From Phaeobacter inhibens DSM 16374 (GTDB lineage Bacteria > Pseudomonadota > Alphaproteobacteria > Rhodobacterales > Rhodobacteraceae): DNA of 64,000 nucleotides. The stretch covers positions 310,001 through 374,000 of the forward strand of contig NZ_KI421498.1 in NCBI RefSeq assembly GCF_000473105.1, in the 5' to 3' direction. The notes under the pieces are model-generated. The model had not been told where the DNA came from and did no database searches. It worked only from the letters and a program-made list of their open reading frames with translations. The position numbers were made by a program, and so were the translations under genes. This document shows, one piece after another, positions 9,886 through 52,521 of this stretch (position 1 is its first letter; every line of letters starts with the position of its first letter).

Positions 9886-10656
9886 TCAATCGCCGGATGT
9901 GGCCGGGTCGGCTGCGTCTGCGGCATCTGTTTTCGGATCGGTCTCTGCGCTATCGCCCGCGTCTGCCGATGCCGTTGCGGGCCGGGTCGGGCGGTCGGAC
10001 ATCAATTCCACCGCCAGCACGCGTGACACCATGCGCCCCTCAGTGAGGGAGAGACGATCCAGCTCCTCCACGATCTGCGAGGCGGCGGCAAAAGAGCGGT
10101 CCATATGGGCAACCAGATAGGGGATCACATCAGGCTTCGGGGTGATCTGGCGGTCATTGAACAGCTTGGCCAAAACGACTGACAGCAGGGCGTCATCGGG
10201 TGGTTGCAGCTGCGCATGTGGCGCGCCCTCGATCCGGCTTTGCAGGTCTGGCAGGGACATGCCCCACAGATGCGGTGCCGCCCGGCCGGTCAGCATCAGG
10301 GCGTGCCCATTGGCCAGCACCAGATTGTGCAGGTGAAACAACGCGTCCTGCGCAGGCGCGCTGTCGGCAATATCCGGCACATCCTCCACCGCAATCGGAC
10401 CATCGGCCAGATGCGGGACATCTTCCTTGGTCAGCTGCCAGGCGGGAATGATCTGTGCGCCCGAATTGCTGGCCCAGACGTGCACCAGATGGGTTTTGCC
10501 AGAGCGTTTCGGCCCGCTCAGCACCAGCTTGCCGCCCGGCCATGCGAAGGAGGGATCCAGCATCGCCACGGCCATGGCATTGGAAGGGGCGACAAAGAAA
10601 TCGTCCCGCCCAAGCGCCGGTTTCGCCGGGAGATCAAAGCTCAGTTGCTGTGCCAT
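9886..10656 (-). CDS. hdaA: DnaA-related regulatory ATPase (Hda/HdaA)
   Basis: A 256-residue AAA+ protein related to the ATPase domain of DnaA. It starts M-A-Q-Q-L-S-F-D-L-P; the Q-L-x-F-D-L motif is the beta-clamp-binding peptide of Hda. Walker A is GPKRSGKT at 48-55. The DNA-binding domain IV of DnaA is absent, as expected. With the sliding clamp it stimulates ATP hydrolysis by DnaA and limits re-initiation. The C-terminal ~35 residues are an Asp/Ala/Thr-rich low-complexity tail. It lies eight bases after the perM-like gene. Confidence 0.88.
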   Translation of the reverse strand: MAQQLSFDLPAKPALGRDDFFVAPSNAMAVAMLDPSFAWPGGKLVLSGPKRSGKTHLVHVWASNSGAQIIPAWQLTKEDVPHLADGPIAVEDVPDIADSAPAQDALFHLHNLVLANGHALMLTGRAAPHLWGMSLPDLQSRIEGAPHAQLQPPDDALLSVVLAKLFNDRQITPKPDVIPYLVAHMDRSFAAASQIVEELDRLSLTEGRMVSRVLAVELMSDRPTRPATASADAGDSAETDPKTDAADAADPATSGD

Positions 10657-10664
10657 GGGGGAAT

Positions 10665-11732
10665 TCAGTCCGCGTCGTGAAAGGCTTTGCCCTGATAGAG
10701 GCGACTGTCCAGATACTGCTCAACAAGGAAACGTGCAATCACCCCAAGTGCGGCGGCAACGGGCACCGCAATCAGCATGCCGACAAAGCCAAACAACGCG
10801 CCAAAGACCGACAAGGCCAGCAGCAACCAGACCGGATGCAGCCCGACCGAATTGCCCACCAGTTTGGGGGTGAGCAAATTGCCCTCAATCACCTGACCGA
10901 TGGCAAAGACGCCGGCCACCATGCCGATCGACCACCAGTCACCCCAGAACTGAAACAGTGCCAGACCAATGGCCAATGCGCCGCCGATCAGGGCACCCAG
11001 ATAGGGAATGAAGGTGACAAGACCAGCGATAAAGCCAACGGCCAGACCAAAGTTCAGCCCGACCAGCATCAGGGCAACGGCGTAGTAGGTGCCAAGGATC
11101 AGACAGACGGTGCCCATGCCACGGATGAAGGAGGCCAGCACCTTGTCAATGCGCGCGGCCAGTTCGCGGATGGTGGGGGCGTGGTCGCGTGGCAGCAGCT
11201 CATCAATGCGGGCGACCATCCGGTCCCAGTCCAACAGCAGATAGACCGCCACAACCGGGACGATCACAAACAGGATCAGCACATTGACCAGCGACACAGC
11301 CGAGCCGACAACGCCTTCCAGAACGCCGATGGCCTTGCTTTGCAGGGTCTGGGCAATGGATACGATGGTCTGTTGCGCGCGGCTGCCCTCGTCAAACAGG
11401 GACGGTGCCTGTTGCTGTACAAAGTCCCGCAGGTTCTTGAAGGCCTCCGGCAGCACCTTGGCGAGATCCAGCATCTGGTAGATCAGTGTTGGCACCACCA
11501 CCAGCAGAATGACGACAAACAGCAGCATCGCAAAAACGGTGATCACCGCAGTGGCTGCCGTCCGGCTGAGGCCCATCGCCTCCAGCCGGTCGGCAATCGG
11601 GTCAATCAGATAGGCAATCGCCGCACCCAGCACGAAGGGCAGCAGCACATCGCCAAGCGCCCAAAGCACAACCGCGATAACAACCGCCGCAATGCCCCAG
11701 TATTTCATCTGTTTCTGTGCGGGAAGAGCCAT
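10665..11732 (-). CDS. PerM/AI-2E family membrane transporter
   Basis: A 355-residue polytopic membrane protein with about 7-8 hydrophobic segments, including the paired N-terminal helices (Y-W-G-I-A-A-V-V-I-A-V and L-L-P-F-V-L-G-A-A-I-A-Y-L) and the conserved late block LTPKLVGNSVGLHPVWLL. These are typical of the AI-2E/PerM (UPF0118) family. Despite the family name there is no evidence here for autoinducer transport; members include Na+/H+ antiporters. Start at ATG 11732, chosen over an upstream in-frame codon that adds a non-membrane Ala/His-rich stretch. First gene of the operon with hda and ppx. Confidence 0.88.
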   Translation of the reverse strand: MALPAQKQMKYWGIAAVVIAVVLWALGDVLLPFVLGAAIAYLIDPIADRLEAMGLSRTAATAVITVFAMLLFVVILLVVVPTLIYQMLDLAKVLPEAFKNLRDFVQQQAPSLFDEGSRAQQTIVSIAQTLQSKAIGVLEGVVGSAVSLVNVLILFVIVPVVAVYLLLDWDRMVARIDELLPRDHAPTIRELAARIDKVLASFIRGMGTVCLILGTYYAVALMLVGLNFGLAVGFIAGLVTFIPYLGALIGGALAIGLALFQFWGDWWSIGMVAGVFAIGQVIEGNLLTPKLVGNSVGLHPVWLLLALSVFGALFGFVGMLIAVPVAAALGVIARFLVEQYLDSRLYQGKAFHDAD

Positions 11733-19145: not shown

Positions 19146-19746
19146 GGCGGCGGCTCCTGCGGGTGGGTCCGGGGTGGGCTGGCGTTGGGGAAGTGTAGAA
19201 AGACCAGCGCCTTGCAGGCAAGCGCTATCACCGCGCGGCCCGATGTGCCTAGGGGCGCGGTGGGGGATGTCCTGATTGTGATGTGCCCGGCGTGGTGGGG
19301 GCGGGGTTTTGGCCGTTGCTGCGGGCAACAAAAGGAGGCGGCGCCGCCAAGGGCCCAATGTGTCCATCGGGGCCAAAGGCGGAGGGTGGGATGGGGATTG
19401 CCCATCTTCGCGAGATATCTGCGAACCGCCCCGGTTGGTGGCCGTGGCGTCCGATCTCCAGGTGGTGTGGCGGGGTGTCAGTCCGCCCCGGATGTCGCGA
19501 CCGGATCAGTCTGGCAGATCGGGTTTAAGCGAAGGTGGGGGCGGCGTGCGGTGGGTGCGCAACGGGGCGGTGAGGGGGAGCGTTTGAGGGGCGGACGGGC
19601 GGAGCCCTTCGCTGCTACCGGTGCCTTGGGAGGTAACGGCGTCGGCGTGCCCCCTTTGGACGTGGCGCGTAGCGGCACGGCCCGCGCCTGACCTTCCCCC
19701 CGGGAAGGCGCTTCACGCCTCCCCAAGGTCAGGCGCTGGCCTTGTG
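19146..19746. other. gene-free GC-rich stretch
   Basis: About 600 bases with no ORF showing normal codon structure on either strand; the open frames are Gly/Arg/Trp-rich. It is strongly G-biased on the plus strand up to about 19590 and ends in a folded inverted repeat (19684-19736). It lies next to the AT-rich gene inserted at parE and may be degraded or repeat-derived sequence. Confidence 0.6.
19684..19736 (-). terminator. compound inverted repeat downstream of the AT-rich gene
   Basis: Arms GCGCCTGACCTT (19684-19695) and AAGGTCAGGCGC (19725-19736) are perfectly complementary. Inside are two competing smaller stems, CCTTCCC/GGGAAGG (19692-19708) and AGGCG/CGCCT (19706-19720). It starts eleven bases after the stop of the gene on the minus strand, so it could terminate that transcript. 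There is no T-run, so it could equally be a dispersed palindromic repeat marking an insertion border. Confidence 0.55.
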
Positions 19747-20760
19747 TCATTCAGAAATCGCTTCCTCTTGATAAAATTTTGCGATGTTTCCTAAATACAG
19801 AAGAGTTGCCAAATAGGTTTGTTGCAGCTCAAATTTAGAAATCTCTCCATGCACTCCCTTGTTACTTCTGTCACTGATGGTTCTTAGAAGTTTTTCGAGT
19901 TCTTTGCTGCTGAAGGAAATGAGCTTTGCACCTTTATTCTTCGCTTCAGTCTCAAGGAAGTATGAAATACGGTTTAGCGGTTTGTCTTGTTCCAGGCCAT
20001 TGATGCCCGGTACAGGTTTTTGTATGGCGTCGGCTATCGTGTTTATGCAGCGTCGGATTAGAAGCGCAGCCTGCGACTTTTCTTCAATGCCTTCTGTGTT
20101 CAAAAGAGAGGAGGCTTTCTGAAGCTGGTTGAGAGACGCAGGCGATAGACGTTCTAAAAATGAGAAGACTGAATTTTCTATCTCAGCGATGGTCACGCTG
20201 TCATTCGCTTCCCACTCCACTTTCTGCTCAATTAGAGAAGCGTAGTCAAAAGCGGCTGACAAGAGCCTTTCCTTGACCTGCTTGATGGCGGAGCGTCGAT
20301 GTATTTCTTTAAGTTTGATAAGCTCGTTTTCTTTGTAGAAAAACGCGGCATCAATGTCGTTTACATTGCTCGGGACTTTCAAGGAATCGAGGGTGTCTTG
20401 TGAGGCTTCTAATTCAAAGTCTATTTGCCCACAGCCAGCCCAGAAAAGGGTGTCCTCTCCAATTTCCAACATTTTACAAGTCTGCTTGCTAAATGTTCGG
20501 TTTCGCATCTTCCGATTTACGGCAATTTCATGAAGGACCTTGATTTGTTCTTTGGTTAACTCCCCAAGTGAACTAAGCAAGTGCCTCAGCGCTTCCTGAT
20601 CTCCATGCTCTTGCTCATGAACAAAGTATGCGAAGCTCTGCAAATCACCGGACAGAAGCGATAACCGCTGGCACCCCCGGAATGCCGATGCAATGTCCTT
20701 TCTTCTAACGTCTTCAAATACTTCATCAATAATTTTGGTTTGACGTGAGCCTTTGCTCAT
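19747..20760 (-). CDS. AT-rich accessory gene with possible C-terminal HEPN-like domain
   Basis: A 337-residue, charged, mostly helical protein with no signal or membrane segment. The base composition is clearly lower in GC than parE and the other neighbours, suggesting recent transfer. The C-terminal part (about 228-330: A-A-L-L-I-R-R-C-I-N-T-I-A-D-A-I, then R298-S-N-K-G-V-H304) resembles a HEPN bundle, with R-x5-H fitting the R-x4-6-H ribonuclease motif. The K-G-V-H-x-E-[VI]-S pattern recurs, from memory, in uncharacterised proteins of mobile islands and defence loci. The ATG overlaps the parE TGA by four bases (ATGA), so it probably uses parE transcription and translation. HEPN assignment is an inference from the motif; the N-terminal 220 residues are unrecognised. 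Confidence 0.6.
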   Translation of the reverse strand: MSKGSRQTKIIDEVFEDVRRKDIASAFRGCQRLSLLSGDLQSFAYFVHEQEHGDQEALRHLLSSLGELTKEQIKVLHEIAVNRKMRNRTFSKQTCKMLEIGEDTLFWAGCGQIDFELEASQDTLDSLKVPSNVNDIDAAFFYKENELIKLKEIHRRSAIKQVKERLLSAAFDYASLIEQKVEWEANDSVTIAEIENSVFSFLERLSPASLNQLQKASSLLNTEGIEEKSQAALLIRRCINTIADAIQKPVPGINGLEQDKPLNRISYFLETEAKNKGAKLISFSSKELEKLLRTISDRSNKGVHGEISKFELQQTYLATLLYLGNIAKFYQEEAISE

Positions 20761-22715
20761 ACATCCAGCTCCTCCACGAACTTCGCGTTCTCCTGGATAT
20801 ACTGGTAGCGAAGCTCGGGTTTTTTGCCCATCAGCTGCTCGACCAGCTCGCTGGTCTCGCCCGGTTCGTCCTCGTCGATGGTGACGCGGATCAGCTTGCG
20901 GGTGGTGGGGTCCATCGTGGTCTCTTTCAGATCCTTGGCGTCCATTTCGCCAAGACCCTTGAAACGGGAGACGTCGATCTTGCCCTTGCCGCCCAGACCC
21001 TTTTCCAGCCAGAGATCACGCTCGGCCTCATCGAGGCAGTAAACGCGGCGGGCGCCCTGGGTCAGGCGGAACAGCGGCGGGCAGGCCAGATACAGGTGGC
21101 CGCCGTCAATCAGCGGGCGCATCTGGGTGAAGAAGAAGGTCATCAGGAGGGACGCGATATGGGCGCCGTCGACGTCCGCATCGGTCATGATGATGATCTT
21201 GTCATAGCGCAGATCGTCGAGGTTGAACTTGGTGCCGGTTCCGACGCCAAGCGCCTCGCAGAGGTCGCGGATTTCGGCGTTGGTGCCGATCTTGTTGGAG
21301 GCAGCGCCCAGCACGTTCAGGATCTTACCCTTGAGCGGCAGCAGCGCCTGATTGACCCGGTTGCGCGCGCCCTTGCCGGAGCCGCCGGCGGAGTCGCCCT
21401 CGACAATGAACAATTCGGTGCCGGCGCGGTCTTTTGATGTGCAGTCGGTCAGTTTGCCGGGCAGGCGCAGCTTTTTGGTGGCCGATTTGCGCTGGGTCTC
21501 TTTCTCCTGCTTGCGGCGCAGGCGTTCCTCAGCGCGCAAGACAAGAAAGTCGAGGATGGCGCCGGCCGATTTGGTGTCGGCGGCCAGCCAGTTGTCGAAA
21601 TGGTCGCGCACCGAGTTTTCGACCATTTTGGCGGCGATTTCGGTCGACAGGCGGTCCTTGGTCTGACCAACAAAGGCCGGATCGGCGATAAAGCAGGAGA
21701 CCAGCGCGCAACCGCCCGCCATCAGGTCGTCGCGGGTGATGCTGGCGGCCTTCTTGTTGCCGACAAGTTCGCCGTAGGCCTTGATCCCCTTGAGGATTGC
21801 GGCCCAGAAACCCGCAACATGGGTGCCGCCCTCGGGCGTGGGGACGGTGTTACAGTAGGACTGGGTGAAGCCGTCGCGCGAGGGCGTCCAGTTGATCGCC
21901 CATTCGACATAACCCGGCGCGTTGAATTTTTCGCGGAACTCAACCTTACCGGCAAAGGGCTGGTCGGCGTAGACGGAGGATTTGCCGAGCACCTCGGTCA
22001 AATAATCCTTAAGTCCGCCGGGGAAGTGGAAGGTGGCCTCGGTCGGGGTCTCATTGTCGTCGATTTCCGATTTCCAGCGGATTTCGACGCCGGAGAACAG
22101 ATAGGCCTTGGAACGCACGAGGGTAAACAGGCGCTTGGGCTTGAAGCGGTGGGAGCCGAAGATCTGCTCATCGGCGTGGAAGGTGACGAAGGTGCCGCGT
22201 TTGTTCGGGGCGGCGCCGATTTTTTCCACCGGGCCCTGCGGGATGCCGCGCGAGAAACGCTGTTCGAACAGTTCCTTGTTTTTGGCGACCTGCACCACCA
22301 TGGAATCCGACAGCGCGTTTACCACGGAGGAGCCGACGCCGTGCAGACCGCCAGAGGTCTGATAGGCCTTGCCGGAGAATTTGCCGCCCGCGTGCAGGGT
22401 GCAGAGGATCACCTCAAGCGCGGATTTGTCCGGGAACTTGGGGTGCGGATCGATCGGGATGCCGCGGCCATTGTCGGAGATGGTGACGGCGTAATCGGCG
22501 TGCAGCGTCACCTCGATCCGGTTGGCGTGGCCGGCGACCGCCTCATCCATGGAGTTGTCGAGGATTTCGGCGACCATATGGTGCAGCGCGCGCTCATCCG
22601 TGCCGCCGATATACATACCGGGGCGCTGGCGGACCGGTTCCAGGCCTTCCAGGACCTCAATTGAGGAGGCGTCATAGGTGTCGGATGCAGGCGTGCTGAG
22701 GAGGTCGTCGGCCAT
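20757..22715 (-). CDS. parE: DNA topoisomerase IV subunit B
   Basis: A 652-residue GHKL ATPase subunit of topoisomerase IV, which decatenates daughter chromosomes. Visible are the N-terminal Y-D-A-S-S-I-E-V-L-E-G-L-E-P-V-R, E-I-L-D-N-S-M-D-E-A (Bergerat fold), D-N-G-R-G-I-P, G-G-L-H-G-V-G-S-S-V, the TOPRIM blocks (F-I-V-E-G-D-S-A-G-G-S, T-D-A-D-V-D-G-A-H-I) and the C-terminal F-K-G-L-G-E-M. The ParE form is favoured over GyrB by the starting motif and length. Start at ATG 22715; upstream codons add a non-homologous Pro/Arg-rich stretch. The stop codon overlaps the start of the AT-rich gene downstream. Confidence 0.95.
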   Translation of the reverse strand: MADDLLSTPASDTYDASSIEVLEGLEPVRQRPGMYIGGTDERALHHMVAEILDNSMDEAVAGHANRIEVTLHADYAVTISDNGRGIPIDPHPKFPDKSALEVILCTLHAGGKFSGKAYQTSGGLHGVGSSVVNALSDSMVVQVAKNKELFEQRFSRGIPQGPVEKIGAAPNKRGTFVTFHADEQIFGSHRFKPKRLFTLVRSKAYLFSGVEIRWKSEIDDNETPTEATFHFPGGLKDYLTEVLGKSSVYADQPFAGKVEFREKFNAPGYVEWAINWTPSRDGFTQSYCNTVPTPEGGTHVAGFWAAILKGIKAYGELVGNKKAASITRDDLMAGGCALVSCFIADPAFVGQTKDRLSTEIAAKMVENSVRDHFDNWLAADTKSAGAILDFLVLRAEERLRRKQEKETQRKSATKKLRLPGKLTDCTSKDRAGTELFIVEGDSAGGSGKGARNRVNQALLPLKGKILNVLGAASNKIGTNAEIRDLCEALGVGTGTKFNLDDLRYDKIIIMTDADVDGAHIASLLMTFFFTQMRPLIDGGHLYLACPPLFRLTQGARRVYCLDEAERDLWLEKGLGGKGKIDVSRFKGLGEMDAKDLKETTMDPTTRKLIRVTIDEDEPGETSELVEQLMGKKPELRYQYIQENAKFVEELDV

Positions 22716-22809
22716 ATGCGGGGCTGCTCTTGCTTGGTTTTGGTTAAGGCTATTATGGCAGGTGTTGGGGCCGGGTGGAAGAGGCACGCAAGGGGCTGTG
22801 GATAAGGCG

Positions 22810-22827
22810 GCCCTGCCGCGGCAGGGC
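22810..22827. repeat. 18-base perfect palindrome
   Basis: GCCCTGCCGCGGCAGGGC is a perfect palindrome in the 232-base region between the divergent parE and decarboxylase genes. It could be an operator or part of a leader hairpin; nothing else identifies a binding protein. Confidence 0.45.
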
Positions 22828-22913
22828 GCCGAGTGACCAGCCCTTCGATGATAAGTTCCCGTATTCAGCCTGCGGCGATATTCTCCGTGCGGTGCCGGGG
22901 CTTGCGGGCTACA

Positions 22914-22927
22914 CCTCAGGCCTGAGG
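22914..22927 (+). promoter_or_regulatory. palindrome next to the decarboxylase ribosome-binding site
   Basis: CCTCAGGCCTGAGG is a perfect 14-base palindrome that ends six bases before the GGAGGAG Shine-Dalgarno site of the GTG start at 22948. It may be an operator or a hairpin affecting translation. Confidence 0.4.
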
Positions 22928-22947
22928 CAGGCAGGAGGAGAACGCAG

Positions 22948-24366
22948 GTGGCTGAGACAGGGATCAAAACGCAGGATTGGACGGCGTTTCGGGCGGAGGC
23001 GCAGCGGATGCTGGAGGCGGCGCTGGATCAGATGCAACAGGCGGCGGAACGCCCCTGGCAGCCCGTGCCCGACGACATTGACGCGCGTTATGCCATCAGG
23101 GCCGAGGCGCAGGGGCCGCAGCAGACAGTGGACCGGATCATCGCAGATGTGCTGCCCTATCACGGCGGCAATATTCATCCGCGGTTCTGGGGCTGGGTGC
23201 AGGGCTCGGGGCTGGCCACGGATCTGATCAGTTCTCTGGCGACGGCGGCGGTCAATGCCAATATGGGCGGGCGCGATCATGGCGCGAACTATATGGAGCG
23301 CGCTGTGGTGGACTGGACCCGCCGCAAAATGGGGATGCCGGAGGGGGCCAGCGGCATTCTGGTGACTGGCACCTCGCAGGCGACGGTGATTGCCTTTCAG
23401 GCGGCGCGGCTGCGGGTGCTGAAGGATCTTCGCAAAGAGGGGCAGGGGGATGTACGGCTGACGGCCTATGCCGGCGCGGGCGTGCACAATGCGACGCTGA
23501 AGGCGGTAGAGCTGCTGGGCATCGGCTCGGACAATCTGCGTAAGGTGCCTTTGGTTGATGGCCAGATGGACTGTGCAGCCCTGGCCCGGATGGTGGCAGA
23601 GGATAAGGCCGCAGGGGCGCTGCCGTTTTTGGTGGTGGGCACGGCGGGGTCGGTGGATCTGGGGCTGTTTGATGATCTGAACGCGCTGGCCGATGTCGCT
23701 GCTGAGCTGGACCTGTGGCTGCATGTGGATGGCGCCTTTGGCGCCTGGACGCGGATTGCGGCGGAGCCGTACCGATCGCTGTCGGATGGCATCGGGCGGG
23801 CCGACAGTATTGCGCTGGATTTCCACAAATGGATGTATGTCGGCTATGACTGCGGCATGGCGCTGCTGCGCAATGAGGACGAACATAGGGCGGCCTTTGC
23901 AGCGCGGCCATCGTATTTGGAAGGGGCCGAGCGCGGGCTGGCAGGCGGTGAGCCGTGGTACTGCGACTACGGCATTGACCTCAGCCGTGGCAATCGTGCG
24001 TTGAAGGTCTGGACCGCGCTGGAGACCTATGGCGAAGCGGCGTTTGCGCAAGCGATCACTGGCAATTGTGATTTGGCGGCAGCGATGGCCGCCGCAGTCG
24101 AGGCGCAGCCGCTGATGGCGCTTGGCGCGCCTGTGGTGTCCAATATCTGCGTGTTTACGGCGCGCAGCGATTTGCCGGTGGCGGCACAGTCGCAGGTGAA
24201 CGCGGATATTGCCCAGACCCTGCAGGAAAGCGGCGAGGCGGTGTTCTCCACCACGCGGATGGACGGGCGGGTGATGCTGCGCGCGGCCATCACCAACCAC
24301 CGCAGCCGCGCGGCGGATGTGGATGCTGCCATTGCCGCAGTCGCACGGGAGGCCGCGCGGGTCTAG
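22948..24366 (+). CDS. PLP-dependent group II decarboxylase (aromatic amino acid type)
   Basis: A 472-residue pyridoxal-phosphate enzyme of the aromatic-L-amino-acid/glutamate decarboxylase family. H-V-D-G-A-F-G (Asp261) and D-F-H-K-W (Lys294 as PLP Schiff base) are intact, as are H-P-R-F-W-G-W in the substrate region and T-G-T-S-Q-A for phosphate binding. The GTG start at 22948 is supported by a strong GGAGGAG seven bases upstream. It probably removes CO2 from an aromatic amino acid to give an amine; the exact substrate is not decided by the motifs. The AhpD-like gene follows on the same strand. Confidence 0.85.
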   Translation: MAETGIKTQDWTAFRAEAQRMLEAALDQMQQAAERPWQPVPDDIDARYAIRAEAQGPQQTVDRIIADVLPYHGGNIHPRFWGWVQGSGLATDLISSLATAAVNANMGGRDHGANYMERAVVDWTRRKMGMPEGASGILVTGTSQATVIAFQAARLRVLKDLRKEGQGDVRLTAYAGAGVHNATLKAVELLGIGSDNLRKVPLVDGQMDCAALARMVAEDKAAGALPFLVVGTAGSVDLGLFDDLNALADVAAELDLWLHVDGAFGAWTRIAAEPYRSLSDGIGRADSIALDFHKWMYVGYDCGMALLRNEDEHRAAFAARPSYLEGAERGLAGGEPWYCDYGIDLSRGNRALKVWTALETYGEAAFAQAITGNCDLAAAMAAAVEAQPLMALGAPVVSNICVFTARSDLPVAAQSQVNADIAQTLQESGEAVFSTTRMDGRVMLRAAITNHRSRAADVDAAIAAVAREAARV

Positions 24367-27681: not shown

Positions 27682-28464
27682 TCAGTTCTCCCCTTGCAGC
27701 CCTGACTTTTCCAACAAGAAATTACGGATGATCGGGTCGATCACCTTATGTTCGATCGGATAGACGCCGCACAGATTGAACACATCGCGCACGGAAGCGG
27801 ACACGTCCGCGCGTTTCCATATGACGCGCCCTGAATAGGGCATCCGCCTGGGTCGCCAGGCCAGCCCAAGTGTCATGCCGCGCAGATAGGTGCGTTGCTG
27901 GCGGTGTGCCGGATAGAGAACTGTCTCCGAGATGGAGCCCTCTTGCTCGCTCTCGAACTCGACAACAAAGATGCGGCTGCCGTGAAACCCCGCTTTGCCA
28001 TCATATCTGGCCCGCTGAAGGTTGACCTGTTCCGGTCCAACGCCACGTTCAATGGTGCGCACGCTGATTTGCCCGCCAAGGTCGTCCAGAAACGATGCGC
28101 CAATCATCACGCAGTCCGGCCAGGACGGGGACATAAAGTGGATGTTGTAGGCACCGACATATTGGCGTAGGCGGGCGAGATCACCTGGAAAGGCATTTGC
28201 AAAGGGGTCTTCGCGGGCGGTGGGTCGGTTGCGGTTCAATTGGCCCCGCCTTTGGGCAAAGGCCTCGCTATCTGACAAAAGGTCACTTTCCTGCAAATCG
28301 AAATACAGGCAGATTCGCCGCAGATTGTGGGCTGAGGGCAGACCCGCGCCACTGAGGTAACGGTTGAACTGCTGTTGGTTAATCCCGATTTCGCGGCAAA
28401 TTTGGGCAATCGACACGCGTTCGGCGCAGACATGCCTTAGGTTTTTTGCGAAGTTTTGGTTCAT
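27682..28464 (-). CDS. HTH (XRE-type) transcriptional regulator
   Basis: A 260-residue protein. Residues ~12-60 form a Cro/C1-type helix-turn-helix (I-A-Q-I-C-R-E-I-G-I-N-Q-Q-Q-F-N-R-Y-L-S-G). The remaining ~190 residues are an uncharacterised domain with I-F-V-V-E-F-E-S-E-Q-E-G, perhaps ligand-sensing. Start ATG at 28464; an upstream start would include promoter DNA. It diverges from the hydrolase-transporter operon, so it is the likely regulator of those genes. The direction of control cannot be told from sequence. Confidence 0.75.
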   Translation of the reverse strand: MNQNFAKNLRHVCAERVSIAQICREIGINQQQFNRYLSGAGLPSAHNLRRICLYFDLQESDLLSDSEAFAQRRGQLNRNRPTAREDPFANAFPGDLARLRQYVGAYNIHFMSPSWPDCVMIGASFLDDLGGQISVRTIERGVGPEQVNLQRARYDGKAGFHGSRIFVVEFESEQEGSISETVLYPAHRQQRTYLRGMTLGLAWRPRRMPYSGRVIWKRADVSASVRDVFNLCGVYPIEHKVIDPIIRNFLLEKSGLQGEN

Positions 28465-28497
28465 ATCGTCATTCCATAAGCAAGTTATAGCGTAAGT

Positions 28498-28539
28498 GCT
28501 AATAGTCGCTAATAAATGTGTATACTTGTGCAATTGTGC
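28498..28539 (+). promoter_or_regulatory. candidate control region of the CocE-ABC operon
   Basis: Two GCTAATA words at 28498 and 28508 lie exactly ten bases apart (one helical turn). They are followed by TATACT (28521-28526), a possible -10 box, and by two TTGTGC words (28526 and 28534) eight bases apart. A good -35 is missing, which would suit an activated promoter bound at the direct repeats. Confidence 0.4.
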
Positions 28540-28584
28540 GATGCAATCGAATCCGCTCTCATCTTACGAGGAAGAGGGGGACAG

Positions 28585-30564
28585 ATGCGCCACATAGAGA
28601 TCATCGAAAACGAATGGATCATGCTGCCGGACGGTCGCCGATTGGCGGCCCGCATCTGGATACCCCGTGGTATCGGCCGGGTTCCTGCAATCCTCGAATA
28701 CTTGCCTTACCGCAAGCGCGATGGCACGGCGGCGCGCGATGAAACCACCTACGGCGTTTTCGCCAAGTCGGGCTATGCCGGTATCCGCGTCGATATCGCA
28801 GGCACCGGCGAGTCTGACGGGGATTTTGACGACGAATATTCCGAGCAGGAGCTCAGTGACGGTGAGGCCGTTCTGGAATGGATCGCGTCGCGCGACTGGT
28901 GTGATGGCAATATCGGGATGATTGGAATCTCTTGGGGTGGTTTCAATGGATTGCAATTGGCCTATCGCCAGCCAGAGGCATTGAAAGCTGTGGTCAGTGT
29001 TGCCTCGACCACGGACCGTTACGCTGACGACATCCATTACATGGGCGGCTGTCTGCTCAGCGACAATGCGAATTGGGCAGCGCAGATGTTTGCCTGTCTG
29101 TCGCGCCCGCCTGATCCTGCCTTGCGATCTGACTGGCGCGCAGAGTGGATCAAGCGTATGGAAACGCTACCTTTTATGGCAGCGGATTGGTTGGGCCATC
29201 CGACGCGGGACGCATTCTGGAAACTAGGATCAGTCTGCGAGGGTTACGCGAAGATCAAGGTGCCCGTGCTGGCTGTGACCGGCTGGGCCGACGCCTATGT
29301 TAACGCCCCCTCCCAGCTTGCTGCGAACTTGAGCGGTCCGGCCAAGGCGCTTATGGGACCGTGGGAACATCGCTATGCGCATATCTCCAAACTCGGCGCG
29401 GCAGATTTTCATTCCGAAGTGTTGGGCTGGTTTGATCGTTGGCTGAAGGGCGAACAGAACGGTGCTGAAGACCTCCCAGACTACCGTGTTTTCATGCAGG
29501 AGCATTTCAATCCTACAGCCCAGAATAAACCCCGCGAGGGGCGCTGGATCGCCGAAGCAGAATGGCCTTCCCCCAATGTAACACAACACAGTTTTTATCT
29601 GGGCAATTCCCGTCTGGAACAGCAGCCGCAATCCGGCGAGTGCATCGTGTCCACCCCCGCGCATGTCGGTCAGGCCAGCGGAGTGTTCTGCGCGGGCATG
29701 CGGATCGACAACGAACTTCCCGGCAATCAAAGCAGCGATGATGCGCTGTCGGTCTGTTTTGATCTGCCGCTAGATACGCCGCTGGAATTGCTCGGGCGCG
29801 CTGTCTTCAACTTCGTGTTCACATCGGACACGCCGGTGGCGCAGATCATGGCGCGGCTCTGCGATGTGTCCCCCGATGGCGTGTCGCAACGCATCAGTTA
29901 TCGCCCCTTGAACCTGACCCACCACACCAGCCATGATACACCCGAAGCGCTAGTTCCGGGGCAACGCTACTACGCCAGTATCGCACTGAATGAATGTGCC
30001 CATAGGCTTCAGTCTGGCCATACGTTGCGATTGGCATTGTCCAACAGCTATTGGCCGATTGTCTGGCCGTCCCCGACTGCGACAGCCCTGACGCTTGATC
30101 TGGCCGAGTGTTCACTGGACCTGCCGGTGCGCACCGTCTCCACAGAAATTGCGACTTCGGCACCCGCAGCACCGCAGGAATTTCCAACTCTCGGAGCTGA
30201 CAATCTGCGCGAACCTGCGGCCACAGCCCGCACCGAAACCTTAGCGGACGGCATGATCGTGCAGGAAACCTTTGACGATTACGGGGCCACACGCGACCCG
30301 CACCATGGGCTGGAAGTCGGAAGCCACGTGACAACCCGTTATGCCATCCTTCCTGACGATCCAACCGCCGCGCAGTTTGACTCGGCTTGGGCGTTTACTT
30401 TTCAACGTGGTGACTGGCGCGTCGAAATTGAAACCGAAAATTCTATGACCTGCGATGCGACAAATTTCTATCTACATCGCAATCTGCGTGCTGTTGAAGG
30501 CACCGAAAAGACCGAAATCCTGACAAAAGAATGGTCGCAGACCATTCCGCGCGGACTCTTATGA
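28585..30564 (+). CDS. CocE/NonD family hydrolase
   Basis: A 659-residue serine hydrolase of the X-Pro dipeptidyl-peptidase S15 / cocaine-esterase family. The nucleophile elbow is G-I-S116-W-G-G; N-terminal L-P-Y-R-K-R-D and D-I-A-G-T-G-E-S-D-G are the usual early strands, and the C-terminal ~220 residues form the jelly-roll domain (P-G-x-x-Y characteristic segments). No signal peptide, so it acts in the cytoplasm on imported substrate. Start at ATG 28585 with GAGGGGGA upstream. First gene of an operon with a peptide-type importer, so it likely cleaves an ester, amide or peptide brought in by it. Confidence 0.85.
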   Translation: MRHIEIIENEWIMLPDGRRLAARIWIPRGIGRVPAILEYLPYRKRDGTAARDETTYGVFAKSGYAGIRVDIAGTGESDGDFDDEYSEQELSDGEAVLEWIASRDWCDGNIGMIGISWGGFNGLQLAYRQPEALKAVVSVASTTDRYADDIHYMGGCLLSDNANWAAQMFACLSRPPDPALRSDWRAEWIKRMETLPFMAADWLGHPTRDAFWKLGSVCEGYAKIKVPVLAVTGWADAYVNAPSQLAANLSGPAKALMGPWEHRYAHISKLGAADFHSEVLGWFDRWLKGEQNGAEDLPDYRVFMQEHFNPTAQNKPREGRWIAEAEWPSPNVTQHSFYLGNSRLEQQPQSGECIVSTPAHVGQASGVFCAGMRIDNELPGNQSSDDALSVCFDLPLDTPLELLGRAVFNFVFTSDTPVAQIMARLCDVSPDGVSQRISYRPLNLTHHTSHDTPEALVPGQRYYASIALNECAHRLQSGHTLRLALSNSYWPIVWPSPTATALTLDLAECSLDLPVRTVSTEIATSAPAAPQEFPTLGADNLREPAATARTETLADGMIVQETFDDYGATRDPHHGLEVGSHVTTRYAILPDDPTAAQFDSAWAFTFQRGDWRVEIETENSMTCDATNFYLHRNLRAVEGTEKTEILTKEWSQTIPRGLL

Positions 30565-37765: not shown

Positions 37766-38986
37766 TCATTCGCGTCTAGCTGTGAGCAGCTGGTCGGTGG
37801 CCAACTTGATTTGGTTCAAGTAGCTTTCATGCCCGTCGACAACTGACATTTCTAAGTCCGGTGCCCCTGTCCGTCCTGCAAGTGCAATCTGGGCGCAGAA
37901 CCAATTGAGAACCGCGCCGCGCGGCAATGTCTCAGCAGGTGGAAAATTCTGCTCAACTGCGGGGGCTTTCGCGATCTCACCTTCGAGCAATTTTCTGGCA
38001 AAAGCCGGATCAGCAATAAAGGGACGCCCCATCCCGATCAGGTCTGTCTTTCCGCCTTCAATCGCATCGTTCATGACGTTGGAGGAACGAAACCCGCCGG
38101 TGACCATCAGGGGAATGTTCAATGCAGCTTTGATCGCAGCGGCATAATCCAGAAAGTAGGCCTCGCGTATCTGAGTTGATCCGCTTTTCGACGCATGTTG
38201 ATACGCTGTCGGCTCTTCGAAATTGCCGCCCGAGATTTCGATAAAATCCACGCCCTCTGCTTCCAACATGACGGCCACTTGAACTGAATCCGCGTGGTCG
38301 AACCCGCCTTTCTGGAAATCGGACGAGTTCAGTTTGACGGCAACGATGAAGCCCGGATCAACCGCTTTCCGAACGGCTCTGACCACCTCGATTGCTAGCC
38401 GAGCCCTGTTTTCCAAAGCACCACCCCAGCGGTCGGTACGGGTGTTTATCCGAGGCGACAGGGCAGAACTAAGCAGGTAACCATGTGCGGCATGAACCTC
38501 GACGCCATCAAACCCAGCCTCCTGTGCAAGCCTTGCAGACCGCACGAATTTTGCGATGATCTCTTCAAATTCGGCCTCGCTTGCTGGTGTCGGCTTGCCA
38601 TAGCCGGGTAAATCTAGCTGGACGTCTGATATCGATGTCGGATGGGCATTGATTGCCTCAGGCGTTTGTCGTCCTGCGTGGGCAAGTTGAGCAAGGATTT
38701 TCGCACCACCACTCTTGCCTGCTGCGGCAAGTGCTGAAACGCGCTTCATGTCCGAACTGGGGTCCAATACAAAGTTGCCAGCATGTTCGAGATGCATCCG
38801 ATCAACGGGTGTGTTCCCTGTGATCAAAAGCGCGGCACCCCCTTTGCTCCATTGCGCAAAGAGGTCAATCTGGGCCTGCGTGGGATTGTTGTATTCGTCC
38901 GCAAGCGCTTCCGACATTGCGGATTTCACGATGCGATTTTTGAGTGTGACACCGTTTGGCAGTGTCAGGTGTTGGCCGATGTTCAT
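37766..38986 (-). CDS. NADH:flavin oxidoreductase (Old Yellow Enzyme family)
   Basis: A 406-residue FMN-dependent TIM-barrel oxidoreductase. L-P-N-G-V-T-L-K-N-R-I-V-K-S-A-M-S-E, Q-L-A-H-A-G-R-Q and E-V-H-A-A-H-G-Y-L-L-S-S-A-L-S-P are standard OYE blocks, the last with the substrate-binding His pair. It lacks the C-terminal Fe-S and NAD domains of 2,4-dienoyl-CoA reductase, so it is a single-domain ene-reductase-like enzyme. GGAGGAA lies about ten bases before ATG 38986. It follows the ArsR gene by two bases, so the two form an operon and ArsR probably controls it. Confidence 0.9.
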   Translation of the reverse strand: MNIGQHLTLPNGVTLKNRIVKSAMSEALADEYNNPTQAQIDLFAQWSKGGAALLITGNTPVDRMHLEHAGNFVLDPSSDMKRVSALAAAGKSGGAKILAQLAHAGRQTPEAINAHPTSISDVQLDLPGYGKPTPASEAEFEEIIAKFVRSARLAQEAGFDGVEVHAAHGYLLSSALSPRINTRTDRWGGALENRARLAIEVVRAVRKAVDPGFIVAVKLNSSDFQKGGFDHADSVQVAVMLEAEGVDFIEISGGNFEEPTAYQHASKSGSTQIREAYFLDYAAAIKAALNIPLMVTGGFRSSNVMNDAIEGGKTDLIGMGRPFIADPAFARKLLEGEIAKAPAVEQNFPPAETLPRGAVLNWFCAQIALAGRTGAPDLEMSVVDGHESYLNQIKLATDQLLTARRE

Positions 38987-38988
38987 TG

Positions 38989-39288
38989 CTACAGTTCCTC
39001 CGCCAGTATTTTCAGTGCTGCTGCGATTGCGTCTTCGTCCCGTCTGTAAAACGTCCATTGCCCATGCCGTTCTGACGTAACAAGCCCAGCGTCTTTGAGC
39101 AGGCGCATGTAGGTCGAGATTGTCGATTGTGAGAGGTTTGCCCTCTCCTGAATGTAGCCAACGCAGACCCCGCTAAGATCAGCGTGTTCCGGCAGAGCTG
39201 GTGGAAAATTAGAGCGATCCTTGAGCCATGCCAATATCTGGCGGCGAACCGGGTTGTTGAGGGCCGATAGTGTTTTATCAATATCCAT
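38989..39288 (-). CDS. ArsR-family transcriptional repressor
   Basis: A 99-residue winged-helix protein: L-N-N-P-V-R-R-Q-I-L-A-W-L near the start, the recognition helix N-L-S-Q-S-T-I-S-T-Y-M-R-L-L, and the wing E-R-H-G-Q-W-T-F-Y-R-R. A single Cys (S-G-V-C-V-G) precedes the recognition helix; the C-V-C metal site of ArsR proper is missing, so it may sense an electrophile or other ligand. Start at ATG 39288, because upstream codons run through a palindromic operator. Leads the operon with the Old Yellow Enzyme. Confidence 0.85.
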   Translation of the reverse strand: MDIDKTLSALNNPVRRQILAWLKDRSNFPPALPEHADLSGVCVGYIQERANLSQSTISTYMRLLKDAGLVTSERHGQWTFYRRDEDAIAAALKILAEEL

Positions 39289-39294
39289 ATATCG

Positions 39295-39310
39295 GTATAT
39301 CGCGATATAC
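39295..39310 (-). promoter_or_regulatory. palindromic operator of the ArsR-OYE operon
   Basis: GTATATCGCGATATAC is a perfect 16-base palindrome starting seven bases upstream of the ArsR start codon, with a further ATAT repeat between. Position and symmetry fit an autoregulatory ArsR operator. Confidence 0.7.
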
Positions 39311-39709
39311 TGTTTCAGAGTCAAGTGACCTGATTAAGGTTTTTGAAAAAGCAGCCGTTAGCCACGATGCAGCAACGCGGTAGGTGTTGGGCTCACTGCC
39401 GACTTGCGGCGATGCGGCGGCAGGCTTGCAGCGAAACTTCACCAGGACGCTTCTCCCACGCGATGCCAGGCAGCCCGAAGCGGACATGGTGCCCAAAATC
39501 TCTTCTGACAAAAGCGGACCTTTGCGAAGACACTCGGCAGATGGAAAGGGTGGGACGAGGCCGCCGGTCGCCGGAGTCGCGAACAAGGCTGCGCCCATTG
39601 TCCGCTATTGGTGCTACGCTGCCAAAGCTCGTCTTAGTTTACGGCATGATCGAGCCCAATTCGCCTGGTGTTGTAAAGCAGACGATTGCCGGCTCTGCAG
39701 ATCGTGCAC
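39311..39709. other. gene-free module junction
   Basis: About 400 bases without a credible ORF. It holds GCGGACATGG (39480-39489) and GCGGACCTTTGCG (39514-39526), two copies of the word also seen near 27536 and 37688. It probably also carries the promoter of the ArsR operon at its left end. Confidence 0.5.
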
Positions 39710-40848: not shown

Positions 40849-41331
40849 ATGAGCAAAACACTGAACCTCCCGAAGCGCGTTGGTCCGAAACCCGATACGA
40901 CCCACGGGCTGCCGCATTCCCAAATCACTCAGCACGGGCCTGACCACATCGTTGACCAGATGCGCGAGTGGGCCTTTTCCCTGCCGTGTGTCGAAAACCG
41001 CGATAGCCTTGTTTCCGTTCCCGGAGCCCGCGCCATGGTCATGCACGACGGAGCCGCCTGCAATCATGACGCCTTCATGATCGGCCGCGAGTTCGCTCAC
41101 ATCCACCCGCATCCGGACAATGGCAGCATGCATGTGCAACTGCCCCACAATGATGCCTTGGAAGTTGTCGAAAAAGGCTGGGGTGAGCACCACACACTGG
41201 TCCTGGCAGGTCGCCGTCCAGTCGGGCTGGTGATGGTGTTTTCACCCCGTGATGAGGCTGAGCTAGACACCATTAAAACGATCCTCAGCCGCTCCTACGA
41301 AGCTGTGACCGCTCAGAAAATCGCGGCGTAG
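40849..41331 (+). CDS. luciferase-domain (DUF5519-like) protein
   Basis: A 160-residue protein resembling the small luciferase-domain family (not bacterial LuxA): F-A-H-I-H-P-H-P-D-N-G-S-M-H-V-Q-L-P, then V-V-E-K-G-W-G-E-H-H, and R-P-V-G-L-V-M-V-F-S-P-R. The conserved histidines H-I-H-P-H and E-x-H-H could bind metal. Function is unknown in bacteria; the name does not imply light production. GGAGA precedes ATG 40849. It leads a group with a solute-binding protein and an SDR protein. Confidence 0.7.
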   Translation: MSKTLNLPKRVGPKPDTTHGLPHSQITQHGPDHIVDQMREWAFSLPCVENRDSLVSVPGARAMVMHDGAACNHDAFMIGREFAHIHPHPDNGSMHVQLPHNDALEVVEKGWGEHHTLVLAGRRPVGLVMVFSPRDEAELDTIKTILSRSYEAVTAQKIAA

Positions 41332-41361
41332 TCCCCCAACCGATACAGAAAGGGTAATCCA

Positions 41362-42441
41362 ATGAAACACGCATTTATTGGTGCTGTTGCAGGAATTCTC
41401 TTTGCCAGTTCGGCACTCGCAACCGAAATCGAAACCAAATCGCTCGAAGAGCTTTATGCCGAAGCCGTTGCGGAAGGCGGTGAGCTGGTCATCCGCGCGG
41501 GCGGTGATAAGGACGATCAGGCCGACTACTACCTGGATATGTTCAAAGAGCGCTTTCCAGAAATCAATGTCACACACAGTGTTGACCTGAGCTTTTATCA
41601 TGCATCGCGTTACGACAACGCCCGCAAGGATGCAGACAAGTCTGACGTGCCGGACGTTATCCAGCTGCAAACGCTGCATGACTACGAATATTATGCCGAG
41701 CGCGGGTTGCTGGAAAGATACAAACCCAGGAACTGGGAGAAGGTTTACCCGGACTACAAAGACCCGCACGGAAACTGGGTTGGCCTGTTCGGCGTGGCCT
41801 TCACCAATGTGTTCAATTCGGGCCTGATCAATGAAGATGACGCTCCGCGCGATGCCTTGGATTATCTGGACCCGGCGCTGAAGTGCAAAGTCATTCTGAC
41901 CTACCCGCACACCGATGACGCCGTTCTGTACCAGTTCTGGAACCTGAAAGAGCAATACGGCTGGGAGTATCTAGAACAGCTTGTTGCCACTGAACCGACC
42001 TGGGTGCGCGGCACGTCGATGCCCTATGTCGCGATTGACAATGGCTGGTACGGCGCGAGCTTCACGACCTCCTGGGCATTTGTGCCATTTGAAGGCAGCG
42101 ATACACGGCTCGTATTGCCCGAAGAAGACTACTTCCTGACTTGGTTTCAGACCGCAGCTATCCCGACCGATGCAAAACACAAGGCGGCGGCCAAACTCTA
42201 TCTGAACTGGATGCTGTCTGAGGAATTCCAAGGCAAGTGGCTGCAATTCCCGGTGCGCATGGATGTTGAATCGCCCGATGGCTACAAATCGCACCTGCAC
42301 TACAACACCTCTCCTGCAGACTTCCACCGGTTCATGCCGAAACGCGATCAGGTCGAGCGTTTCCGCCTGCAGATCGAACAGCTCGTTGGTCCGGCTGAAG
42401 GTCCAGCCCCTCTCGAACTGGACTACAGCGTCAAACCATAA
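41362..42441 (+). CDS. orphan ABC-type solute-binding protein
   Basis: A 359-residue protein with a signal peptide (M-K-H-A-F-I-G-A-V-A-G-I-L-F, cleavage after A-L-A). The mature part is a family-1/6-like periplasmic binding protein (iron/thiamine/putrescine type): V-I-R-A-G-G-D-K-D-D near the start, P-D-V-I-Q-L-Q-T-L-H-D-Y, and L-Y-L-N-W-M-L-S-E-E-F-Q near the C-terminus. Permease and ATPase genes are not adjacent, so either it serves a remote transporter or another role such as sensing. SD AAAGGG upstream; about 30 bases after the luciferase-domain gene. Confidence 0.82.
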   Translation: MKHAFIGAVAGILFASSALATEIETKSLEELYAEAVAEGGELVIRAGGDKDDQADYYLDMFKERFPEINVTHSVDLSFYHASRYDNARKDADKSDVPDVIQLQTLHDYEYYAERGLLERYKPRNWEKVYPDYKDPHGNWVGLFGVAFTNVFNSGLINEDDAPRDALDYLDPALKCKVILTYPHTDDAVLYQFWNLKEQYGWEYLEQLVATEPTWVRGTSMPYVAIDNGWYGASFTTSWAFVPFEGSDTRLVLPEEDYFLTWFQTAAIPTDAKHKAAAKLYLNWMLSEEFQGKWLQFPVRMDVESPDGYKSHLHYNTSPADFHRFMPKRDQVERFRLQIEQLVGPAEGPAPLELDYSVKP

Positions 42442-51198: not shown

Positions 51199-52032
51199 AT
51201 GCGCCAGTACCATGAGGCATTGCAGTATATTCTGGACCACGGCGAGGCGAGCAGCGACCGGACCGGCACTGGTACCATATCCTGTTTCGGGATGCAGACC
51301 CGCTATCCGCTCGCGGATGGGTTCCCGCTGGTGACCACCAAGAAGCTGCATCTGCGCTCAATCATTCATGAACTGCTGTGGTTCCTGTCCGGCGATACCA
51401 ATATTGGCTACCTCAAGGACAATGGCGTGTCGATCTGGGATGAATGGGCGGATGAGAATGGCGATCTTGGACCGGTCTATGGCCACCAGTGGCGACATTT
51501 TCCGCGCCTGGAGCTTGCCCCCGGCACCAGCGGGGATGAGCCGCTCTATCGTGCGGGCACGGTGGATCAGATCACGAATCTGGTTGAGATGATCCGCAAT
51601 AGCCCGGACAGCCGCCGCCTGATCGTGACGGCCTGGAACCCTGCGGATGTGCCCGATATGGCGCTGCCGCCCTGTCATACGCTGTGGCAGGTGCGGGTGC
51701 AGGGACGGCGGATGCATTTGCAGCTCTATCAGCGGTCTGCGGATATGTTTCTGGGCGTGCCGTTTAACATCGCCTCTTATGCGCTGCTGTTGAAAATGCT
51801 GGCGCATGTGACCGGTTATGAGGCGGGGGATTTTATTCACACCATTGGTGACGCACATATCTATTCCAACCATATGGATCAGGTGAAGCTGCAATTGTCA
51901 CGGAAACCGCAGCCGTTGCCGGAGTTGCGTATAAACCGCGATGTCTCCTCCATTTTTGAGTTTAAATATGAAGATTTCGACGTGCTGAATTACACTCCGG
52001 ACCCGGGCATCAAAGCTCCGGTTGCGGTTTAG
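51199..52032 (+). CDS. thyA: thymidylate synthase
   Basis: A 277-residue enzyme that methylates dUMP to dTMP using methylenetetrahydrofolate. The catalytic Cys159 lies in [14 protein letters not shown] at the start, [15 protein letters not shown] and H-I-Y-S-N-H are the other conserved blocks. GGGGAGG before ATG. Followed 12 bases later by folA, the usual pairing that regenerates folate. Confidence 0.96.
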
Positions 52033-52044
52033 GAAAGGATTGAG

Positions 52045-52521
52045 ATGATCACCCTTATTGTTGCCCGCGACCAGAATGGCGCCATCGGCAAGGACAATAC
52101 GATCCCCTGGCATGCGCCAGAGGATCTGCAATCTTTTCAGCGCGAAACGCTGGGCGGGGCTTTGATCATGGGGCGCAATACCTGGGATAGCCTGCCGGTG
52201 AAGCCTTTGAAAAACCGGCTCAATCTGGTGGTGTCTTCGGATCCGGAGGCTGCCGATCTGGTCTATCCCAGCATTGAGGCGGCGCTGGCGGAGGCGCGCG
52301 CGCAGGGCTATCACCGGATTTACGGCATTGGCGGCGCCGGCATCTACAAGGGCATGATGGAGGCGGCCGACCGGATGCTGATCACCGAGGTTGAGACCGA
52401 GGTGGAGGGCGCGGATACGTATTTCCCCAAGTTCCGGGCCGGTGAATGGGGGATCGCCAGCCAGACTCAGATCCGCAGTGAGGCGCCGGCCTGTGTGGTG
52501 GTAGAATATCTGCGCCGCTGA
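52045..52521 (+). CDS. folA: dihydrofolate reductase
   Basis: A 158-residue DHFR that reduces dihydrofolate with NADPH. I-V-A-R-D-Q-N-G-A-I-G-K-D-N-T-I-P-W is the N-terminal signature, D-L-Q-S-F gives the substrate region, M-G-R-N-T-W-D-S-L the NADPH region, and G-I-G-G-A-G-I-Y the second dinucleotide block. The catalytic acidic residue is present in P-E-D-L. In an operon with thyA. Confidence 0.95.
   Translation: MITLIVARDQNGAIGKDNTIPWHAPEDLQSFQRETLGGALIMGRNTWDSLPVKPLKNRLNLVVSSDPEAADLVYPSIEAALAEARAQGYHRIYGIGGAGIYKGMMEAADRMLITEVETEVEGADTYFPKFRAGEWGIASQTQIRSEAPACVVVEYLRR

Follow-up and report, generated by a model that had tools for sequence, protein, structure and literature searches.

The window analysed here, a stretch of 64,000 nucleotides from a Rhodobacteraceae genome, contains a single AT-rich gene whose start codon overlaps the stop codon of parE. 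This arrangement raises the question of whether the gene is specifically tied to topoisomerase IV, or whether the 3′ end of parE is a place at which genes of different kinds come and go. The features of the locus that bear on this question are as follows.

19747..20760, minus strand: cargo gene, encoding a 337-aa AbiTii/HEPN(c2405)-like candidate abortive-infection protein; GC 44%
20757..22967, minus strand: parE, topoisomerase IV subunit B, a host core gene (ORF called from TTG; the true start may be further in)
20757..20760, minus strand: ATGA, the cargo-gene start codon overlapping the parE stop
20759-20757, minus strand: parE stop codon
20760..20781, minus strand: conserved site GTTYGTGGAGGAGYTGGATGTT, the last 22 nt of parE
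19746, minus strand: base after the cargo gene's own stop codon, where homology to sister genome G005 resumes
19678..19742, minus strand: GC-rich hairpin directly behind the cargo gene, with 17-base arms, one mismatch and an inner stem

An AT-rich gene at the parE stop codon

The cargo ORF extends from 20760 to 19747 on the minus strand and comprises 337 codons, beginning with ATG. Its GC content is 44.3% (GC3 47%, as compared with 80% in parE), while the 500-nt intervals on either side are mostly at 0.59–0.69 GC. Over the 64 kb, GC is below 0.52 in 16 of 636 intervals of 400 nt; the longest stretch of low GC, 19600–20900, corresponds to the cargo gene. The only other stretches of the window below 0.52 GC are 28200–28700, 38900–39400, 41300–41700 and 51700–52100. 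A first-pass annotation, made from the letters of this DNA, had described a gene far below its neighbours in GC and a four-base overlap of its ATG with the parE stop; both statements are borne out.

The same annotation had proposed that the gene was inserted exactly at the 3′ end of parE. This proposal is strengthened by the alignment to G005, which carries a different cassette: homology ends at 20757, the last base of the parE stop, and returns at 19746. The far end of the cassette in the window is therefore the stop codon of the cargo gene itself. Judging from the ATGA overlap, the cargo gene is probably translated from the parE message, as had also been suggested, and its translation is predicted to be coupled to that of parE.

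A variable slot behind parE

Our survey of related genomes revealed that the main finding is the place, not the gene. An AT-rich segment begins at the parE stop in 74 of 128 sampled family genomes, a sample that includes the host genome and Pacificibacter as known positives. The segment was called when the first 400 nt after the parE stop were below 0.52 GC, a GC-based call that serves as a proxy. The genomes were drawn nearly in order from the top of a parE-similarity list, with some omitted, mostly those on short contigs. Segments are present in 43 of the 68 genomes of set 1 (60 from the family, seven of the host genus and Pacificibacter), and in 31 of 60 genomes of a fresh set. All seven genomes of the host genus have an AT-rich segment after the parE stop, different in each case and followed by DNA of higher GC. 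As controls, GC below 0.52 was seen in 7 of 118 cases at 1800–2200 nt past the parE stop, and in none of 388 intervals beyond 2 kb at five loci of the host genus. The segments have a median length of 816 bp (from the 63 of 74 with a clear GC step) and a mean GC of 0.45.

Since this class is defined by GC alone, the parE 3′ flank might merely be AT-rich intergenic DNA in the family. We regard such a composition artefact as hardly credible, because an ORF of at least 66 aa is present in 73 of the 74 segments (GC ceiling 0.57; median of the longest, 233 aa), many of these ORFs have specific domains, and GC returns to a mean of 0.64 past the segment.

The cargo is highly diverse. The 87 ORFs from these 73 segments form 66 clusters, including 49 singletons, and 60 segments hold a single ORF; the one in L175 (135-1754, genome G375) is unusually long, at 540 aa. 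The longest ORF has the same direction as parE in 58 of 73 segments, and overlaps the parE stop in 16. Defence-type domains are abundant among the Pfam matches (E 0.001) and include Mrr, AbiU2-HEPN, TIR (also of the ThsB type), Shedu and AIPR, as well as HNH_2, NA-iREase, DUF4238, RelA/SpoT, reverse transcriptase and trypsin, and matches of other types include YdcZ, CsbD, VasI, 4HBT and MarR. Cargo ORFs matched 98 PADLOC models, and at least 39 of the 85 ORFs scanned, by summed member counts, have no Pfam match at E 0.001. The Pfam lists for these 85 ORFs (38 + 47), which are complete, name no integrase, transposase or resolvase family, and no recombinase domain was found in the remaining two, those of the host and Pacificibacter.

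We read the 3′ end of parE as a hotspot, shared across the family and precise to the base, that takes up single genes, often of a defence type, and the segment at 20760–19747 is probably one cargo gene in this hotspot. The first-pass annotation had considered a defence factor tied to topoisomerase IV to be unusual. Our results reverse this view: most sampled relatives carry a different gene in the same place, so that the tie reflects the hotspot and not specifically this defence factor. The locus combines a core flank, variable defence-type cargo and a lack of mobile-element genes, as in core defence hotspots, the distal flank having been compared in detail within the host genus only.

No hotspot is evident outside the family. 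We read 30 class loci, and among the 29 that were testable GC dropped by more than 0.10 in six, two of which are the host and another family member; outside the family, the drop was thus seen at 4 of 27 testable loci. Literature searches on parE insertion, hotspots, cassettes, integrons, AbiTii and Xer elements returned no earlier description of the parE-end site among the matches listed, most subscription papers lying outside their reach. In the accessible part of PMC8649781 the ParE discussed is a toxin, and in that of PMC10121019 parE does not appear.

Two side observations concern related arrangements. In one genus (g402; L242, L243, L244, L245, L248, L249), GC is high, at 0.65–0.69, over the first 400 nt behind parE, and the AT-rich part begins later, as if another segment lay between. 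In the host genome, a second AT-rich lone gene, of 280 aa, is found on contig C1 at about 248.3–249.2 kb (L117 4331-5173), behind an ABC-F gene, which we take to be ettA-like, and a terminator, and it ends at the same type of hairpin. These hints make it possible that the end of the ABC-F gene is a second slot.

The parE end, the far end and the route of entry

In genomes with a segment, the last 22 nt of parE (GTTYGTGGAGGAGYTGGATGTT) are preserved as DNA, against codon usage. The parE gene ends in GATGTT in 35 of 43 segment genomes as compared with 7 of 25 others in set 1 (p=2e-5), and in 25 of 31 as compared with 6 of 29 among the 60 fresh genomes (p=6e-6). In the segment genomes of set 1, the last two codons are GAT in 43 of 43 and GTT in 35 of 43, while elsewhere in the same parE stretch aspartate is GAT in 38 of 123 cases and valine is GTT in 7 of 87. 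Between −22 and −1, third codon positions other than −19 (C or T) vary less among segment genomes than among the others. The wobble distance over the last eight codons is 0.22 among segment genomes versus 0.555 among the others, whereas the upstream parE codons are equally diverged (0.424 versus 0.399). This contrast persists in pairs matched for upstream divergence, and none of 1000 label permutations, which ignore phylogeny, reached it. The strongest edge of the signature is at codon −8; codons −9 and −11 show a weaker class difference, and codon −7 a reversed one (0.50 versus 0.39). The host copy of the site departs from the 22-mer at a single base, with A for the final T, a change that would turn a built-in TTGA into the ATGA that starts the cargo gene.

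The presence of a segment declines with mismatches to the 22-mer: 38 of 42 genomes with none, 22 of 26 with one, 9 of 19 with two, 2 of 7 with three, 1 of 10 with four, 1 of 12 with five, 0 of 11 with six and 1 of 1 with seven, the last being a genome that is also at 0.45 GC further downstream. No segment was called in 18 of the 87 genomes with zero to two mismatches. ORFs in the first 900 nt that are common to at least five other sampled genomes were found in 4 of these 87, versus 7 of 24 with five or more mismatches. Among 292 genomes drawn from the order, 99 contain the exact 23-mer, which consists of the site and a following T, and none contains its reversed control. A within-genus comparison of 30 genomes from three genera, 14 with the exact 23-mer and 16 without, showed a GC drop in 17 of 23 genomes with zero or one mismatch versus 2 of 7 with three or more (p=0.07), one genus holding four of the six site-bearing genomes that lack the drop. 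The within-genus association of the 22-mer with the segment is thus only suggestive. By inspection, the likeness of the 22-mer to the dif sequence appeared poor, and a Xer/dif reading was dropped.

The far end is less uniform. Of 68 genomes, 20 have a match to the pattern of the hairpin behind the cargo gene, lying between 576 and 1194 nt from the parE stop; 19 of these 20 belong to the segment class. Structure z values below −4 were obtained at 22 of 63 segment boundaries versus 2 of 59 controls. A covariance model of the hairpin gave 3–11 matches in each of the seven genomes of the host genus, some of them representing both strands of one place. Of the 37 genomes searched, 17 had matches, often at places outside AT-rich DNA. 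The hairpin is therefore a member of a dispersed repeat family, which weakens its candidacy as a cassette-specific, attC-like end and makes it more likely a terminator or a recombination arm. Rfam gave no match on the window and three loci, and no GTTRRRY core was noticed by eye at the hairpins. A second copy of the site, such as an attR-like remnant, was not detected at the far end, with weak matches in 4 of 74 segments and 11 matches in 370 shuffles. In another genome (G002, L033), a unit that includes the hairpin's right arm recurs about six times at about 0.7–1.4 kb behind parE, the copies being mostly 125–128 nt apart by eye.

The well-preserved stretch of DNA, together with the varied genes behind it, points to an undescribed gene-swapping site. 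Genes would be exchanged by recombination, with the 22-nt parE end as the left edge. Such a swap would leave parE intact and place the newcomer directly downstream, co-directional in about four of five cases. The right edge would often be the GC-rich hairpin, which could also end transcription. Entry may occur through a recombinase acting in trans, or through recombination via the short conserved flanks.

The second of these routes, in which short linear DNA delivered by gene transfer agents (GTAs), transformation or transduction recombines in, with the 22-nt end and the hairpin as identical arms carried along, is in our estimate a serious possibility that falls somewhat short of an even chance. 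Both flanks are conserved between genera, the right one often with the shared hairpin, and the segments are small. A portal-protein family, which also includes the GTA portal, has matches in 31 of 37 sampled family genomes. The accessible part of PMC9836097 describes GTA genes as particularly conserved in Rhodobacterales, and Johnson 2023 (PMC10250203), in the portion available, proposes transduction and recombination for similar hotspots. A homology arm fits less well with the strong conservation ending near −22 and continuing more weakly to codon −11, with no long fading tract, and dozens of unrelated genes share the same left joint to the base, which plain homology would have to trace to one founding insertion. 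The strong edge near −22 favours a recognised attachment site. Site-specific insertion by a recombinase or transposase from elsewhere, integron-like in effect, would account for the base-precise joint, the 22-nt signature against codon use, the graded loss of segments with mismatches, the many exact 23-mers and the lack of a recombinase domain in the cargo; we consider it possible, though we lean against it. No second copy of the site exceeds the shuffles at the far end of the 74 segments, no far-end motif is common to all of them and no recombinase was found, and these negative results, together with the conserved far flank, favour the short homology arm. In a stronger proposal, which we advance tentatively and with some doubt, an undescribed cassette-capture system with its machinery encoded elsewhere would use the parE 3′ end for attachment and place single defence genes, precise to the base, on the parE message. 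If true, it would provide one interchangeable immune slot for the whole family, functionally an integron without an integron.

Transposons could also use parE as an attachment site, since some type I-F3 CASTs insert beside parE via a dedicated TniQ, according to the available part of PMC11406308. Degraded Tn7-like or CAST elements are nevertheless a very improbable source of the segments: the cargo ORFs have no transposition domain, and segments of about 0.8 kb whose joint is at the stop codon hardly have space for the left end of a transposon.

The swapping site also differs from the hotspots and cassette systems that it resembles. Integron cassette arrays consist of single genes, mostly in one direction, that enter at a fixed site, often with a hairpin at the 3′ end. 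The parE slot shares these traits, but it holds one cassette, its site is within the coding end of parE and its hairpin is a dispersed repeat. cDHS1 and cDHS2 of Pseudomonas aeruginosa likewise place variable defence genes beside core genes, show no evident mobile element and are occupied in most isolates, as far as the accessible part of Johnson 2023 (PMC10250203) describes them. They span 1–224 kb, with a median of 26 kb for cDHS1, and belong to one species, whereas the parE slot holds mostly one gene of about 0.8 kb, is family-wide and has a base-precise joint and a DNA signature in the flanking gene. A short exact address, the 22 nt at the end of parE, allows the current, often defence-type gene of a family genome to be read. 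As at least 39 of the 85 cargo ORFs lack a Pfam match, the slot offers new anti-phage candidates in compact form. It also makes it possible to test how single genes pass between species without visible mobility genes, and whether defence is expressed constitutively from essential-gene transcripts.

The product of the cargo gene

The host protein has no significant match in Pfam, PADLOC, PHROGs, NCBIfam or PDB sequences. The first-pass annotation had named conservation of the gene at this site across the family as evidence against its own reading; tblastn and genome searches found no such conservation, with relatives in 4 of 394 family genomes including the host, and behind parE only in the host and in Pacificibacter maritimus (Roseobacteraceae). 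The Pacificibacter relative lies directly behind parE and, provided that its TTG start is correct, overlaps it by four bases. It is 56% identical, as compared with 84% for parE, and the cargo gene is therefore much more diverged than its neighbour. The G411 relative shows 26% identity, and the match to G234 is confined to the C-terminal part. Outside the family, relatives were found on two Rhizobium plasmids (25%) and two Alteromonas plasmids, but none in phage and viral collections, and a five-sequence profile searched against 385 class genomes matched the host alone.

The first-pass annotation had recognised an R-x5-H HEPN ribonuclease motif, R298 and H304, in a helical C-terminal region. 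Both residues are at these positions, but the family alignment does not uphold the motif: K301-G-V-H304 is invariant in five of five sequences, while R298 is R in two (the host and Pacificibacter) and L or I in the other three, and R-x5-H was rejected as a catalytic signature on this alignment. The HEPN-like C-terminal region and the defence type of the gene are better supported. In hhalign, the C-terminal half of the cargo family matched the G234 relative, which has an AbiTii Pfam match, at a probability score of 97.8, and an Alteromonas relative with a C-terminal helix-hairpin-helix (HHH) at 98.9. The accessible part of Anantharaman 2013 (PMC3710099) characterises c2405-type HEPN domains by the words "conserved H but lacks R" and reports their fusion with AbiTii and, in a few cases, with HHH. 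The C-terminal matches to relatives of that build, the conserved H without a conserved R, the C-terminal HHH of one relative and the helical N-terminal extension all agree with this class as described there. We accordingly read the protein as an AbiTii-HEPN candidate, and from its sequence the product looks like a c2405-type abortive-infection protein, although it falls below every curated AbiTii or HEPN model, has a highly diverged N-terminal part and is here a lone gene behind parE. Such a protein would abort phage infection, perhaps through cleavage or binding of RNA by the H304/KGVH region.

The N-terminal 220 residues, which the annotation could not recognise, indeed have no AbiTii match in the host protein, but they probably form a diverged AbiTii-like domain. 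This assignment is weakly supported: two relatives have sub-threshold AbiTii matches (E 0.0057 and 0.1), and the G234 relative, which just exceeds the Pfam cut-off (27.7 versus 27.6 bits), matches the host protein only in the C-terminal part. The full-length structure model is poor (pLDDT 53.5) and gave no significant Foldseek match. The C-terminal model (pLDDT 78.4) is all helical, and the HEPN domain protein 4nqf was the most probable of its 50 listed Foldseek matches (probability score 0.60, E 1.3), all of which were weak and none significant. The presence of R and H and this ranking of 4nqf would suit a HEPN RNase that uses R298-x5-H304 for catalysis and has an individual tie to parE. We consider that explanation unlikely, given that R298 is replaced in three of five sequences with KGVH intact, and that unrelated genes fill the same slot elsewhere. 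The interpretation offered by the first-pass annotation is, as a whole, partly supported.

On the R. etli plasmid (L007), the distant relative of the cargo gene, at 9986-11032, lies behind a 4-kb ORF, and genes annotated as HEPN, HEPN-associated, helicase and AAA ATPase are found within 10 kb of it.
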